Below are positions 3,416-34,914 of a stretch of DNA of 64,000 nt, in pieces. The notes under the pieces were generated by a model, which was given only the letters and a program-made list of their open reading frames with translations, was not told the DNA's origin and searched no databases. The position numbers were made by a program, and so were the translations under genes. The first letter of the stretch is position 1, and every line of letters starts with the position of its first letter. Origin of the DNA: an uncultured Paracoccaceae bacterium (GTDB lineage Bacteria > Pseudomonadota > Alphaproteobacteria > Rhodobacterales > Rhodobacteraceae). The DNA lies in contig CAKZOU010000066.1 in assembly GCA_937138255.1 (NCBI GenBank), forward strand, positions 1 to 64,000, read 5' to 3'.

Positions 3416-3727
3416 GCCTCGGTCTCCTTCAGACCCGTTTCCACCAGATCCCAGATAGGTCGGGACCGCTCATATCACAAACGCACCGGAATGCGTTCAG
3501 CCGAAAAACGCGCCCAAGGGCCACGTTCCAAACGAATTGCGCGCCCACGGGCGCGACGCGCTGGTGGACGGCGATCCCCGCAATTGGGCGAGGACCGGAA
3601 GACAGACTGCTTCCGGAGATTGGGGGCCGTGTATGCCTGTCGAGGCGAGGAGTCAAGCGCTGCAAGGCGCTCAGCCCTTGCGTTCCCAACAAAGTCCGTG
3701 AATGGAATTGAGGCAAGGAGGCGGGCC
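3416..3727. other. Divergent intergenic region between ffh and the esterase
   Basis: This 312-bp gap is the only one longer than 300 bp in the window. It must hold the promoters of ffh (minus) and of the esterase (plus). I see the esterase ribosome binding site AAGGAGG at 3714-3720 and several short GC-rich inverted repeats (for example around GCGCGCCCACGGGCGCG near 3540), but no convincing -35/-10 pair, small ORF with a good ribosome binding site, or recognisable RNA gene. Confidence 0.5.
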
Positions 3728-29522: not shown

Positions 29523-29553
29523 CAAAAAAAACGCGGGCTGAGAGCCCGCGTTT
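29523..29553 (-). terminator. Rho-independent terminator of the small heat-shock gene
   Basis: Minus strand: a 9-bp stem ACGCGGGCT/AGCCCGCGT with a 3-nt loop, followed by eight T residues. It is 22 bp after the hsp20 stop and a canonical intrinsic terminator. Confidence 0.92.
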
Positions 29554-29575: not shown

Positions 29576-30043
29576 TTAGTTAACGGCCTTGGCATCCACT
29601 AAATCGCGCTCGACCGGCGAGGCGCCAGCAATTTCAATTCGGCGCGGCTTGAGGGCCTCGGGCACTTCGCGCTGCAGGTCGATGTTGAGCATCCCGTTCT
29701 CGTGGCTCGCGCCTTTCACATGCACATGGTCGGCAAGGTGGAAGCGGCGCTCGAAGGCGCGGGTCGCAATGCCGCGATGCAGGAACACGCGGGCTTCGTC
29801 TTCGGCGGACTTGCGGCCCGAGACGAAGAGGGTGTTCTCGCGGACCTCGACGGCGAGGTCTTCGTCGGCAAAGCCGGCAACGGCGATCGAGATGCGCCAG
29901 CCGTCTTCGGCGGTCTTCTCGATGTTATAGGGGGGGTAGCTCTGGCCAGGGGTTTCGCTGGCGAAAACGCGGTCCATCAGGTCGGCGATTTGGTCGAATC
30001 CGACAGTGGAACGGTAAAGGGGCGTGAGATCAAATGTGCGCAT
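29576..30043 (-). CDS. Small heat-shock protein Hsp20 (IbpA/HspA-like)
   Basis: A 155-residue alpha-crystallin-type chaperone that holds unfolding proteins for refolding by DnaK/ClpB. The N-terminus (R-T-F-D-L-T-P-L-Y-R-S-T-V-G-F-D) is that of the IbpA-like class A proteins of rhizobia and relatives; the alpha-crystallin domain spans about 36-130, with the A-x-x-x-N-G-x-L motif seen as S-H-E-N-G-M-L-N-I-D-L. The C-terminal I-x-I anchor is R-I-E-I. It has its own sigma-32-type promoter and a ROSE-like leader (see those entries), so both transcription and translation appear heat-controlled. Confidence 0.95.
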   Translation of the reverse strand: MRTFDLTPLYRSTVGFDQIADLMDRVFASETPGQSYPPYNIEKTAEDGWRISIAVAGFADEDLAVEVRENTLFVSGRKSAEDEARVFLHRGIATRAFERRFHLADHVHVKGASHENGMLNIDLQREVPEALKPRRIEIAGASPVERDLVDAKAVN

Positions 30044-30122
30044 GGGTTATCCTCCAGTGAGCGACAACGTTGGGCCTTCCCGAAGGGACAGGCAGTGATC
30101 CGAGGCCCGATTGGCACCTCGG
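30044..30122 (-). promoter_or_regulatory. ROSE-like RNA thermometer in the hsp20 5' leader
   Basis: In the hsp20 leader the last hairpin (30046-30068) pairs GTTGTC-G-CTC with GAGGATAAC around a 4-nt loop: nine pairs, one of them G-U, with a single bulged G inside TCGCT. The SD GGAGG (30051-30055) lies mostly within the stem, 7 nt from the ATG. ROSE thermometers, common before hsp20 genes of alphaproteobacteria, have exactly this anti-SD U-(U/C)-G-C-U with an unpaired or G-G-paired guanine. Two more hairpins are upstream: CCTTC-GG-GAAGG (near 30077-30088) and CCGAGG/CCTCGG (30100-30122). Confidence 0.75.
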
Positions 30123-30130
30123 TCCTCATG

Positions 30131-30159
30131 ATTTGGGGGCGGCTTCGGACCCTTTCAAG
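30131..30159 (-). promoter_or_regulatory. Sigma-32 (RpoH) type promoter of hsp20
   Basis: Minus strand: CTTGAAA (30153-30159), a 13-bp spacer, then CCCCCAAAT (30131-30139). It matches the RpoH pattern CTTGAAA-N(11-16)-CCCCATnT closely. It lies 88 bp before the start codon and starts only 4 bp from the stop of the upstream protease gene. Confidence 0.75.
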
Positions 30160-30162
30160 AGC

Positions 30163-30969
30163 CTAGGGCTGGACGAATTTCGCGCCCGTGTCGGTGCGCT
30201 CGCCGGGGGTGATGACCCTCTGGCCGCCACTCGACCAAACGGGGGCGGATTCGGTGAAGTGGGTCATCAGGTCTTCGAACGCCGCGCCAAGGTCGGGGCC
30301 GATGCTGACAGGCTGATCTTCGAGCATGGCCATGGCCGAGATGATAGAAACCACCTGCGCCACGCCACCCCGAACCGCAAACACCGGCGCGCCGCTTGCG
30401 CCGAAATCGGCATCGCAATCCATGATCACGATCCCGTCCTGAACGGCGATCACGCCGCAGAGGTCTTGCAGCGATGAGGCCGTGTCGCGGTCACGGGCGT
30501 AGGACACAACGGCAAGTTCGTCGGCGCTTTCCACATCGCCGGAAATCGGAAAAGGCGCGACCTTCGAGGTGCGGATAGGCTGGCTCAACTCAAGAAGGGC
30601 CAGATCGAATGGAACGGCCTCGGTGCTTTTGCGTCCGGTGCGGAGGACGTAGGCAGGGTGCGCCACCGCCCGCCGCACATCGCGATAGGCTTCGGCGCGG
30701 CCCGTGCGCAGGCCTGCGAGAAAATGGAAGCGGTTGGCCGCGATCTGTGTGCCGTCTTTGTCGATAAGACAGTGGGCTGCCGTCAGGACGAGGTCTTCCG
30801 AAATAAGCGCTCCGCTGCAAAAGCCCTTGCCGTCGATGTCGACGCGCCCGACACCTTCCCAACCGCGCCCGGCCTGACCCGTTTGCAGGGACACCAAGCC
30901 AGAACCTTGCGCCGCCACGCCGGAAGCGAGGCAGAGCCAAAATGTAAGCGAGCGAATGAGAGGGATCAT
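30163..30969 (-). CDS. Secreted trypsin-like serine protease (S1 family)
   Basis: A 268-residue protease with an N-terminal signal peptide (hydrophobic to about residue 20, A-A-Q cleavage). The triad is complete: His66 in L-T-A-A-H-C, Asp122 in P-F-D-L-A-L-L, and Ser192 in F-G-A-S-G-A-P-V-F. Cysteines near 51/67 and others could form disulfides in the periplasm. It is a short chymotrypsin-fold enzyme without PDZ domain, unlike DegP. It lies 53 bp downstream of glcF on the same strand, perhaps by chance; a CCCCG/CGGGG hairpin lies between them. The target is unknown. Confidence 0.9.
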   Translation of the reverse strand: MIPLIRSLTFWLCLASGVAAQGSGLVSLQTGQAGRGWEGVGRVDIDGKGFCSGALISEDLVLTAAHCLIDKDGTQIAANRFHFLAGLRTGRAEAYRDVRRAVAHPAYVLRTGRKSTEAVPFDLALLELSQPIRTSKVAPFPISGDVESADELAVVSYARDRDTASSLQDLCGVIAVQDGIVIMDCDADFGASGAPVFAVRGGVAQVVSIISAMAMLEDQPVSIGPDLGAAFEDLMTHFTESAPVWSSGGQRVITPGERTDTGAKFVQP

Positions 30970-31022: not shown

Positions 31023-32348
31023 TCAGCGCAGAATTGGAATATCCGACTTGGGCCGCCCGTGCTCGCCCATCGTCGGCGGGATCGGCCCGCCGGTGACCCA
31101 ATCCAGAAGCTCGACCGTGTGGACCACCGGAACACCGGTGCCCGAACCGATCTGCATCATGCAGCCGATGTTGCCGGCTGCGATGACATCGGGGGTAAGC
31201 GCCTCGAGCGTGCGGACCTTGCGGGCCTTCAGCTGGCCGGAGATCTCGGGCTGCATCAGGTTATAGGTGCCGGCAGAGCCGCAGCAGAGGTGCGGGTCGG
31301 CAGGTTCGAGAACCGTGAAACCGGCCTTTTTCAAAAGGTCTTTCGGCAGGGTCTTGATCTTCTGCCCGTGCTGGAGCGAACAGGCCGCGTGATAGGCCAC
31401 GCGCATTTCCTGTGCGGCTGGCGAGGCGGGGAAATCGAGCCTGGAGAGAACTTCGCTCACATCCATCGCGATCTTCGAGACCCGCGCCGCATCGGCCGCG
31501 AGCGGCTCGTTGCGGAACATATGCCCATAGTCCTTGACCGTGGTGCCGCAGCCTGAGGTGTTGATGACGATGGCATCAAGCCCGTCGCCATCCATCTCGG
31601 CCGCCCATGCGCGGATGTTCTTCGCCGCGGTCGCGTGGCTTTCGTCTTCCTTTCCCATGTGATGGGTCAGCGCCCCGCAACAGCCCGCGCCCTCGGCGAT
31701 CACCACTTCGCAGCCAAGGCGTGTGAGGAGCCGGATCGTCGCGTCGTTGATATCTGTGTTGAGCGCCTTCTGCGCGCAGCCCGTCATCAGCGCCACACGC
31801 ATCTTGCGGGGGGCGATGGGCGCGAAACTTTGCGGATCGTCGTTGCGGCTCACTGGCGGGATGCGCTTCGGCGCCATGGCGATCATCGCCCGCAGGCGCG
31901 GATCGGGCAGGAGGCGGGCGAAGGGCCGGCCGATCTTGGCCGCGAGAAGGGCGAGGCGGAACCGCCCGGGATAGGGCAGGATCCGTGCCAAGACCCAGCG
32001 CAGGGCGCGATCGGTCAGCGGACGTTTGTAGTGGTTTTCCACATAGGCGCGGGCGTGGTCGATCAGGTGCATATAGTGCACGCCCGAGGGGCAGGTGCTC
32101 ATGCAGGCAAGGCACGAGAGGCAGCGGTCGATATGGCCGACCGTCTTGGCATCGGGGATACGCTCGTTCTCGAGCATATCCTTGATGAGATAGATACGGC
32201 CACGCGGGCTATCGAGCTCGTCGCCCAAGACCTGATAGGTCGGGCAGGTGGCTGTGCAAAAGCCGCAATGCACGCAGGCGCGCAGGATCTCGTTGGCGCG
32301 CTGGATGCCCGGATCGGTAAGCTGTTCGGGGGTAAAGGTCGTCTGCAT
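31023..32348 (-). CDS. glcF: Glycolate oxidase iron-sulfur subunit GlcF
   Basis: A 441-residue subunit that passes electrons from GlcD flavin. Two [4Fe-4S] clusters are bound by C-V-H-C-G-F-C-T-A-T-C-P (about 31-42) and C-L-S-C-L-A-C-M-S-T-C-P (about 82-93), and two CCG domains follow (G-C-C-G-A-L-T-H-H, L-C-C-G-S-A-G-T-Y). It starts 2 bp after glcE and completes the glcDEF operon, which converts glycolate to glyoxylate. Confidence 0.95.
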   Translation of the reverse strand: MQTTFTPEQLTDPGIQRANEILRACVHCGFCTATCPTYQVLGDELDSPRGRIYLIKDMLENERIPDAKTVGHIDRCLSCLACMSTCPSGVHYMHLIDHARAYVENHYKRPLTDRALRWVLARILPYPGRFRLALLAAKIGRPFARLLPDPRLRAMIAMAPKRIPPVSRNDDPQSFAPIAPRKMRVALMTGCAQKALNTDINDATIRLLTRLGCEVVIAEGAGCCGALTHHMGKEDESHATAAKNIRAWAAEMDGDGLDAIVINTSGCGTTVKDYGHMFRNEPLAADAARVSKIAMDVSEVLSRLDFPASPAAQEMRVAYHAACSLQHGQKIKTLPKDLLKKAGFTVLEPADPHLCCGSAGTYNLMQPEISGQLKARKVRTLEALTPDVIAAGNIGCMMQIGSGTGVPVVHTVELLDWVTGGPIPPTMGEHGRPKSDIPILR

Positions 32349-32350
32349 CG

Positions 32351-33469
32351 TCAGCCCATCATGCCGGGATTAAGGATCCCGCGGGGATCGAACTGGGCGC
32401 GAAGGCCAGCGGAGAGCCGCGCCAGCGGCGCAGGCTCAGGCTGGAAAACGCCAAGGCGCGCGCGGGTTTCGGCGCTGGCGCGGATCAGGGTCGCGTGGCC
32501 CGCGAATGCGCCGAGGCTGGCGCGCAGGTCGGTGTCGGCTTCGGCCCGAAGCCAGACCAGACCGCCGCCCCAATCGTAGAGCGCCTGCTTGGCACCGGCA
32601 CGCGCCACGAGCGCGGGCGCATCGCTCGGCTTGACCGAAAGCCGCCAGACATCGCCGTCTTTCCCGGCAAAAGCGGTCACATCGCGGATCGCGGCCCAAA
32701 GCTTGGCAACGGCATCGGGGTTGGCCTCGATCCGCGGTGGGGCGAAGGGTTTGAGCAACTCTGCCAGCCGCTCAGAGCGATAGCGCACCGACTCTGCAAA
32801 GCCCTCTAGGCGCAGAAGGGTCTCGCCAGTGCCGGGATTGTGCGATGCGCCACTCACCTCGAAGGGCGAGCCAAGGCCCGCCGCCATCGCGGCAACGGCC
32901 TGCGCGTCGGAAAGCCCCTTGAGCACGACGGTCGCGCTTGCGGCGACCTTCGGCAGCACCTTGAGGCTCACCTCGGTGAGGATGCCAAGCGTGCCATAGC
33001 TTCCCGAAAGGAGCTTCACGAGGTCATAGCCCGTCACGTTCTTCATCACCCGCCCGCCATTGCGGATCACGGTGCCGCGCCCGTCTACGAAGCGCAGACC
33101 AAGCACATAGTCCCTCGCCGCGCCAACCATCACGCGGCGAGGGCCGGAGACGTTTGCGGCAACGACACCACCGATGGTCGGCTCGCCCGTGGTCCCCAGA
33201 AGCGCGCGATGGTCCATCGGCTCGAACGGCAGGCGCTGGTTGTCCTTGGCAAGCCGCTCGCGGATCTCTTCAACGGGCGTTCCGGCGCGGGCGACAAGCG
33301 TCAAGGCGCCGGGTTCATAAAGGGTGATACCCGTGATCGCGGCGGACGTCAGGCGCTCGCCGGTGGCATTGTCGGCAAAGCCGCGTGTGCCGCCGCCCTG
33401 AATGCTCAAGGCCCTTTTGGCGCCAGCAACGATGCCGGCCAGTTCTTCTTCCGAATTCGGCCTGATCAT
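32351..33469 (-). CDS. glcE: Glycolate oxidase FAD-binding subunit GlcE
   Basis: A 372-residue FAD-linked subunit of glycolate oxidase. The PCMH-type FAD domain includes S-I-Q-G-G-G-T-R-G-F, T-G-E-P-T-I-G-G-V-V-A-A-N-V-S-G-P and V-M-K-N-V-T-G-Y-D-L-V-K-L. The ATG at 33469 overlaps the glcD stop (ATGA), so translation is coupled; the open frame runs further upstream inside glcD. Confidence 0.94.
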   Translation of the reverse strand: MIRPNSEEELAGIVAGAKRALSIQGGGTRGFADNATGERLTSAAITGITLYEPGALTLVARAGTPVEEIRERLAKDNQRLPFEPMDHRALLGTTGEPTIGGVVAANVSGPRRVMVGAARDYVLGLRFVDGRGTVIRNGGRVMKNVTGYDLVKLLSGSYGTLGILTEVSLKVLPKVAASATVVLKGLSDAQAVAAMAAGLGSPFEVSGASHNPGTGETLLRLEGFAESVRYRSERLAELLKPFAPPRIEANPDAVAKLWAAIRDVTAFAGKDGDVWRLSVKPSDAPALVARAGAKQALYDWGGGLVWLRAEADTDLRASLGAFAGHATLIRASAETRARLGVFQPEPAPLARLSAGLRAQFDPRGILNPGMMG

Positions 33470-34914
33470 GCGGCTTCCCCGCTCTGGGCGCGACGCGCCT
33501 CGCTTGAGGCCAGCGGAAAGACCTTGGCGGGATTGAGAAGCCATTCTGGATCGAACACGTCCTTCACCCGCATCTGCGCCTCGAGGTCTTCGGGCGAAAA
33601 TTGAACCGTCATCAGATCGCGTTTCTCGATGCCGACGCCATGCTCGCCCGTCAGGCAGCCGCCGACCTCGACACAAAGCTTGAGGATATCGGCGCCAAAG
33701 GCCTCGCAAAGCTCGAGATCGCCGGGCTTGTTGGCATCGTAAAGGATCAGAGGGTGCATATTGCCATCGCCCGCGTGGAAGACGTTGCCGACGCCGAGGC
33801 CATATTCCTTGCTCATCTCGCCAATGCGGCGCAGGACGTAGGGCAATTCGGAGACGGGGATCGTCCCGTCAAGACACATATAGTCGTTGATCTGGCCCAT
33901 CGCGCCGAAGGCGGATTTCCGGCCCAGCCAGATGCGGGCCGCCTCGTCGGCATCCTGCGCCTCGCGCAGTTCGACCGGGTTGTGGCGGCGGGCGATCTCT
34001 TTGATCACGGCCAGCTGTTCGTCGATCTCGGCAGGGCTGCCTTCAACCTCGATGATCAGAAGCGCCTCGCACATCGGATAGCCGGCCTTGGCGAAAGCTT
34101 CGGTCGCTTCGATACACGGGCGATCCATGAATTCGATGGCCACAGGCAGCACGCCCGCCTTGATGATGTCGGAGACGCATGTCCCCGCAACCTCGTTGCT
34201 GTCATAGCCGATCAGCACAGGCCGCGCGCCTTCGGGCTTGGGCAGGATCCGTAAGGTTGCCTCGGTGACAACGCCAAGCTGCCCTTCCGAGCCGCAGATC
34301 ACCCCCAAGAGGTCGAGCCCGCCCGCATCCATATGCGCGCCGCCCACCTCGATGATGGTTCCGTCCATCATCACCATGGTGACGCCGAGGAGGTTGTTGG
34401 TCGTGACGCCATACTTGAGGCAATGCGCCCCGCCCGAGTTCATGCCGATGTTGCCTGCAATGGCGCAGGCCAACTGCGAGGAGGGGTCGGGGGCATAGAA
34501 GAAGCCGTCGGTCTCGACCGCACCGGTAACTGAGAGATTCGTCCGCCCTGATTGCACACGGATGAAGCGGTTGGGGTAATCGGTCTCCAGCACCGCATTG
34601 AGCCGCGCCACGCCAAGGATCACCGCATCCGCCGTAGGCAGGGCACCCCCCGCAAGCGATGTGCCCGAGCCACGCGGGACCACGGGCACGCCTTCCTCGT
34701 GGCAGATCTTCAGAATGGCCGAAACCTCTTCGGTCGAGCTCGGCAGGACGGCGCAAAGCGGCGGACAGCGGTAGGCCGAGAGCGCATCGCACTCATATGC
34801 GCGCGTTTCGGACTCGTCGTGAATCACCGCGCCGTTTTGGAGCGCATCTTGCAAGCGACTGACAATCCTGTCCTTTTTCGACAGAACATCAGGATTGGGC
34901 TTTGGCATTTCCAT
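33466..34914 (-). CDS. glcD: Glycolate oxidase subunit GlcD
   Basis: A 482-residue FAD-dependent catalytic subunit. FAD motifs P-R-G-S-G-T-S-L-A-G-G-A, D-P-S-S-Q-L-A-C-A-I-A-G-N-I-G-M-N-S-G-G and the C-terminal H-A-G-D-G-N-M-H-P and G-E-H-G-V-G-I are conserved. First gene of glcDEF. The ATG at 34914 has GAGGTG upstream. An ATTGGT/ACCAAT inverted repeat lies 15-37 bp before the start, a probable operator for a GlcC-like FadR-family regulator. Confidence 0.95.
   Translation of the reverse strand: MEMPKPNPDVLSKKDRIVSRLQDALQNGAVIHDESETRAYECDALSAYRCPPLCAVLPSSTEEVSAILKICHEEGVPVVPRGSGTSLAGGALPTADAVILGVARLNAVLETDYPNRFIRVQSGRTNLSVTGAVETDGFFYAPDPSSQLACAIAGNIGMNSGGAHCLKYGVTTNNLLGVTMVMMDGTIIEVGGAHMDAGGLDLLGVICGSEGQLGVVTEATLRILPKPEGARPVLIGYDSNEVAGTCVSDIIKAGVLPVAIEFMDRPCIEATEAFAKAGYPMCEALLIIEVEGSPAEIDEQLAVIKEIARRHNPVELREAQDADEAARIWLGRKSAFGAMGQINDYMCLDGTIPVSELPYVLRRIGEMSKEYGLGVGNVFHAGDGNMHPLILYDANKPGDLELCEAFGADILKLCVEVGGCLTGEHGVGIEKRDLMTVQFSPEDLEAQMRVKDVFDPEWLLNPAKVFPLASSEARRAQSGEAA

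Follow-up and report, generated by a model that had tools for sequence, protein, structure and literature searches.

The leader of the hsp20 gene at 29576-30043 (minus strand) is, with a probability that we put at about 0.9, a three-hairpin ROSE-type RNA thermometer in which RpoH-driven hsp20 mRNA would have its Shine-Dalgarno (SD) sequence freed on heating. The gene lies in a stretch of 64,000 nucleotides, here called the window, from the 2.85-Mb genome assembly of a marine bacterium of the Rhodobacterales whose nearest named relatives are Marivivens. In the mechanism that we propose, RpoH (sigma-32) would transcribe hsp20 upon heat shock as an RNA that begins just 5' of hairpin I. While the cell grows at its normal temperature, pairing of the SD with a UCGCU anti-SD in hairpin III would block 30S binding. 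A bulged G would weaken the helix of hairpin III enough for it to open on heating, so that the SD is freed, and hairpins I and II would remain folded, holding hairpin III in register.

The hsp20 gene, its putative promoter and the fold of its leader

The gene encodes an ibpA-type small heat-shock protein of 155 amino acids that matches Pfam HSP20 (6e-19) and whose closest NCBIfam models are IbpA and IbpB, both scoring under their cut-offs. About 120 intergenic bases separate hsp20 from the end of the gene of a trypsin-like serine protease (30163-30969, minus strand) that lies upstream; 3 bases past the end of the protease gene, the predicted -35 box of hsp20 starts. At 31023-34914 (minus strand) three adjoining open reading frames resemble a glycolate oxidase set, with two putative FAD-linked subunits and one putative iron-sulphur subunit.

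A predicted promoter of the sigma-32 (RpoH) type lies directly 5' of the leader, with the -35 box CTTGAAA at 30153-30159 and the -10 box CCCCAAAT, placed by consensus match only, at 30131-30138 (both minus strand). The arrangement CTTGAAA-14 nt-CCCCAAAT appears to fit the sigma-32 pattern of CTTGAAA and CCCCATnT-type boxes 13-14 nt apart, and rpoH is present in the same genome. In all 82 orthologue leaders examined, [CG]TTGAA is found at a like distance 5' of hsp20, with a box resembling the -10 downstream of it; a search for a sigma-70 promoter found none. With this promoter directly upstream, transcription should start at about 30123-30125, just 5' of hairpin I. The predicted promoter lies within no hairpin, and the start is thus expected before the hairpins and not inside or downstream of the SD hairpin, a point on which the original prediction had depended. 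A candidate intrinsic terminator with an 11-bp stem and a T-run (29529-29553, minus strand) is located just past the stop codon, suggesting a single-gene transcript; the search that found it returned 1 terminator against 0.8 expected by shuffle.

Folding of the leader (30122-30041, minus strand, read 5' to 3', as are all leader features below) gave three hairpins with a minimum free energy of -33.1 kcal/mol. As a single sequence the leader is only moderately low in energy compared with shuffles, 5 of 200 of which fold equally well (z -2.2). Hairpin I (30122-30100) carries a bulged G in Y-G-CC...GG, and hairpin II (30093-30074) has the form GCCU-G-UCCC...GGGA-AGGC. Hairpin III (30068-30046), which sequesters the SD and is the putative thermometer hairpin, consists of GUUGUC-G-CUC/ACUG/GAG-GAUAAC, that is, nine pairs around one bulged G (30062), and ends 2 nt 5' of the AUG start codon (30043-30041). 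This bulged G sits within the anti-SD UCGCU (30064-30060) and faces the SD GGAGG (30055-30051), which is placed 8-12 nt before the AUG. One bulged G inside TCGCT and two further hairpins upstream had been foreseen, and the fold contains both, the upstream hairpins being recovered by RNAalifold as well. The nine pairs said to hide GGAGG were also found, but the first G of the motif falls in the loop of hairpin III, leaving four of the five SD bases paired. The SD strand of hairpin III has no bulge. The leader hence combines a place in the 5' UTR immediately ahead of a small heat-shock gene, three hairpins with the SD hairpin last, a bulged G in the anti-SD strand, and an SD paired with U(U/C)GCU, the pairing by which ROSE-like thermometers are defined (PMC3669281). 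Three to four hairpins have been reported for classical ROSE elements (PMC3669281).

Conservation in Rhodobacterales and relation to the ROSE families

We compared the window with 80 Rhodobacterales hsp20 loci. RNAalifold, applied to 44 leaders that had simply been aligned with MAFFT and on which no structure was imposed, recovered all three hairpins and left the bulged G unpaired. In the 81 distinct leaders aligned to a covariance model (alignment A2, which is model-fitted and hence biased towards the structure), 94.3% of cells were paired and 17 of 26 pairs had changed on both sides. Over the whole structure, cells with a double change numbered 253; shuffling of columns gave 73, and sliding of partner columns against each other gave no more than 60. 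The core of the SD hairpin was kept in all 81 leaders. An SD base of hairpin III and its partner covary (C-G in 59, U-A in 20 and U-G in 2 leaders); on the protein tree this pair changed only about five times in all, so the 20 U-A cases are not 20 independent events, and a tree-based sign test of covariation could not reach significance because too few independent pairs were available. We judge the comparative evidence from these sequences decisive for the predicted structure.

The bulged G is conserved in 82 of 82 leaders in hairpin III, likewise in 82 of 82 in hairpin I, and in 77 of 80 in hairpin II; the three occupy columns 10, 50 and 136 of alignment A2 (hairpins I, II and III, respectively), each on the 5' strand. 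Within the UYGCU of Rhodobacterales, U, G, C and U are invariant (82/82) and Y is C in 80 leaders and U in 2; UYGCU also precedes the SD in all 26 loci from outside the order. The hairpin layout varies in a few relatives: in two Maritimibacter loci (L070 2893-3012 and L071 2894-3012) hairpin II is followed by an additional inverted repeat, GTCAGYGCATGCTGAC, inserted ahead of hairpin III, which makes a four-hairpin leader, and in two Roseobacter loci (L047 2902-3012 and L052 2900-3012) hairpin II is replaced or rearranged (GGCGGACGTCCATCCGGAGCCGCTGGC in L047) with hairpins I and III retained.

At gathering cut-offs Rfam gave no match to the leader. Searched without cut-offs, ROSE_2 (RF01832, E 0.0029) and ROSE (RF00435, E 0.081) were the best two of 4227 families, each at 24.8 bits and so below its gathering cut-off of 65 and 45 bits, respectively. 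Both alignments end in register with the AUG, and the leader is the sole match of either family in its own genome. The Rfam run proposed with the original prediction was therefore divided in outcome, with nothing at gathering level and the two ROSE families, in register, at the head of the ranking. The RF01832 cut-off was passed in none of 150 Rhodobacterales genomes and the RF00435 cut-off in 1 of 289 genomes sampled from the whole class. One RF01832 match in a relative (L096), which lacked a neighbouring Hsp20, was put down to chance. The sole gathering-level Rfam match of the window is an ffh sRNA (RF01793, 53.1 bits) at 3534-3585 (minus strand), and in Salipiger bermudensis (L072 4328-4477, plus strand) a Cis2_sRNA (RF02645, 106 bits) is situated about 850 bases downstream of hsp20.

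A covariance model built solely from the 44 Rhodobacterales leaders, R1, matched all 82 hsp20 loci once each and had one match in the genome of the window. Within the order, 149 of 150 genomes had a match, G089 being the only one without, and so did 86 of the 289 genomes of the class-wide sample; there was typically one match per genome, 5' of hsp20 wherever checked. All 39 loci retrieved by R1 encode Hsp20 and have a start codon at the AUG position of the model (in one of them, L108, the local Hsp20 alignment starts at residue 3). Conservation of the hairpin in relatives, which the original prediction needed, is accordingly very strong.

Searching outside the order, we found that R1 recognizes the leader of E. 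coli ibpA with 49.2 bits and all three hairpins aligned, that of E. coli ibpB with 27.5 bits and loci of the rhizobial RF00435 type with 31-43 bits. RF00435 has 47 matches across the class (E up to 0.1), and 24 of them coincide with sites matched by R1. Most of these share the register, and in most the two ends are shifted by 3 and 5 bases. Recognition of both E. coli and rhizobial elements by one model made from Rhodobacterales argues that RF01832 and RF00435 form one family, and together with UYGCU and its bulged G it upholds the assignment to the ROSE type. Judged by these comparisons, the leader is homologous to characterised ROSE elements, which is more than mere resemblance, and its status as an uncatalogued addition to the known ROSE class is well supported. 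Hairpin III is thus seen in the fold, the Rfam alignments, RNAalifold, R1 and the covariation, and hairpin I in the fold, RNAalifold and the covariation.

Self-repression, thermal opening and static repression

It is possible, though we would not expect it, that the leader serves chiefly to bind Hsp20 for translational self-repression, a function that may act alongside a thermometer; heat would then act by drawing the protein to aggregates and not by melting the RNA. The model is E. coli IbpA, which represses its translation by binding to the 5' UTR of its mRNA. R93, R97 and K98 are needed for this, as is an aromatic residue in position 34 (PMC10474464); such control has been shown only in γ-proteobacteria. 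All 80 Rhodobacterales orthologues keep R93, R97 and Y34, and so does the window protein, which has R at position 98, but R93 belongs to the chaperone domain and its conservation could have other reasons. Hairpins I and II conserve letters beyond what pairing requires, as well as the bulged G in each, and these letters together with the conserved residues make self-repression by Hsp20 via the leader plausible. The U-Y-G-C-U that faces the SD is nonetheless the signature of a thermometer, whatever else binds. With a like probability, the ROSE leaders of α- and γ-proteobacteria may be one homologous three-hairpin element whose hairpins I and II bind the small heat-shock protein, in which case the α-proteobacterial leaders would respond to free chaperone as well as to temperature. 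Hairpins I and II, through their conserved letters and bulged Gs, and the conserved RNA-binding arginine offer a testable handle on chaperone self-repression in α-proteobacteria.

As to thermal opening, which the ROSE-type reading entails, hairpin III is the weakest of the three hairpins, with a predicted stability at 37°C of -7.7 kcal/mol compared with -9.5 and -12.9 kcal/mol for the others. This value is within the range of RF00435-type SD hairpins (-5.9 to -8.6 kcal/mol), and the E. coli ibpA hairpin is less stable (-4.6 kcal/mol). Deletion of the bulged G is predicted to bring hairpin III from -7.7 to -11.5 kcal/mol at 37°C, a gain of 3.8 kcal/mol. The mean unpaired fraction of the SD at 37°C was 0.24 in these leaders versus 0.38 in 94 control genes neighbouring the loci (p 3e-7). 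Nearest-neighbour folding from 20 to 50°C, a check proposed at the outset, went against the expectation in that it gave a flat curve in which the SD hairpin did not open. The control, the E. coli ibpA leader, for which thermal induction has been reported (PMC3669281), was likewise not predicted to open up to 50°C, indicating that this kind of folding does not discriminate for melting. We therefore infer thermal action of the leader from its family membership and homology.

The same flat curve, together with the sigma-32-type promoter 5' of the leader and the presence of rpoH, is what would be seen if hairpin III were static and non-thermal and simply kept hsp20 translation low, with heat induction wholly transcriptional via RpoH. 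We consider this quite improbable, given that the leader is homologous to those of E. coli ibpA and rhizobial ROSE, for which thermal opening is proven, and has a destabilising bulge that is invariant in 82 of 82 leaders and that a mere repressor does not need. A structure that GC-rich DNA forms by chance, or that merely follows from promoter and coding sequence, would agree with the moderate gain of the single-sequence energy over shuffles but was rejected as next to impossible, since the covariation far exceeds the shuffled and slid controls and R1 usually finds a single site per genome, before hsp20 wherever checked.

The leader among known ROSE systems

ROSE thermometers have been described for α- and γ-proteobacteria, more than 40 of them by 2005 according to a citing passage in PMC4166951. 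The original prediction knew of no characterised ROSE element in this lineage. This stands as far as characterised elements go, none having been found for Rhodobacterales in a literature search for which subscription journals were mostly out of reach; mention of such motifs does exist, as the main text of the 2011 genome paper on Nautella sp. R11, a member of the Roseobacter group, notes ROSE-like motifs upstream of ibpA and hspD (PMC3230580). That case is alike in bacterial group, in the kind of gene and in having two hsp genes with motifs, and differs in being a brief prediction, with no alignment or test in the relevant passages. New here are the distribution across the order, the lack of coverage by Rfam and a model that brings RF00435 and RF01832 together. 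A known thermometer family is thereby extended to practically the whole of the Rhodobacterales, where the ROSE cut-offs of Rfam report nothing.

The genome carries a second hsp20 (G000:C41, L002), 50% identical and with a shorter leader. RNAalifold of 28 aligned leaders of this second type gave two hairpins (L002 1410-1470 in this genome), the first YGCC...GG with a bulged G and the next GUC-G-CUU...AAG-GAC, ahead of the start codon; among the 28 leaders, A-U replaces G-C five times at the foot of the SD helix. R1 finds this leader weakly in relatives (8.7-11.2 bits). With its two hairpins it is similar to thermometers of Pseudomonas ibpA (PMC3669281). The leader of the window hsp20 shares with these short ROSE-like elements the U(U/C)GCU that faces the SD, and a stable 5' hairpin followed by a thermolabile SD hairpin is the layout to which we liken it, but it has three hairpins where Pseudomonas has two (PMC3669281). 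Like ROSE-G, it has a bulged G in the anti-SD; ROSE-G differs in its CUGCU, in a second bulged G in the SD strand and in its occurrence before ABC transporter genes (PMC12857270), and was rejected as an assignment since the leader has UCGCU and an SD strand with no opposed bulge.

The closest counterparts are the two Rfam families. With ROSE (RF00435) the leader has in common the GCC...GG of hairpin I, an SD hairpin with U-Y-G-C-U and bulged G, and the association with small heat-shock genes, and RF00435 and R1 recognize the same genomic sites; the sequence of the middle part is different. Compared with ROSE_2 (RF01832), hairpin III has a longer lower stem and the SD hairpin is spaced closer to the AUG, but hairpin II agrees almost letter for letter (GCCUGUCC...GGAAGGC with the bulged G), and both have a UCGCU anti-SD with a bulged G and an AUG in register, 5' of ibpA.
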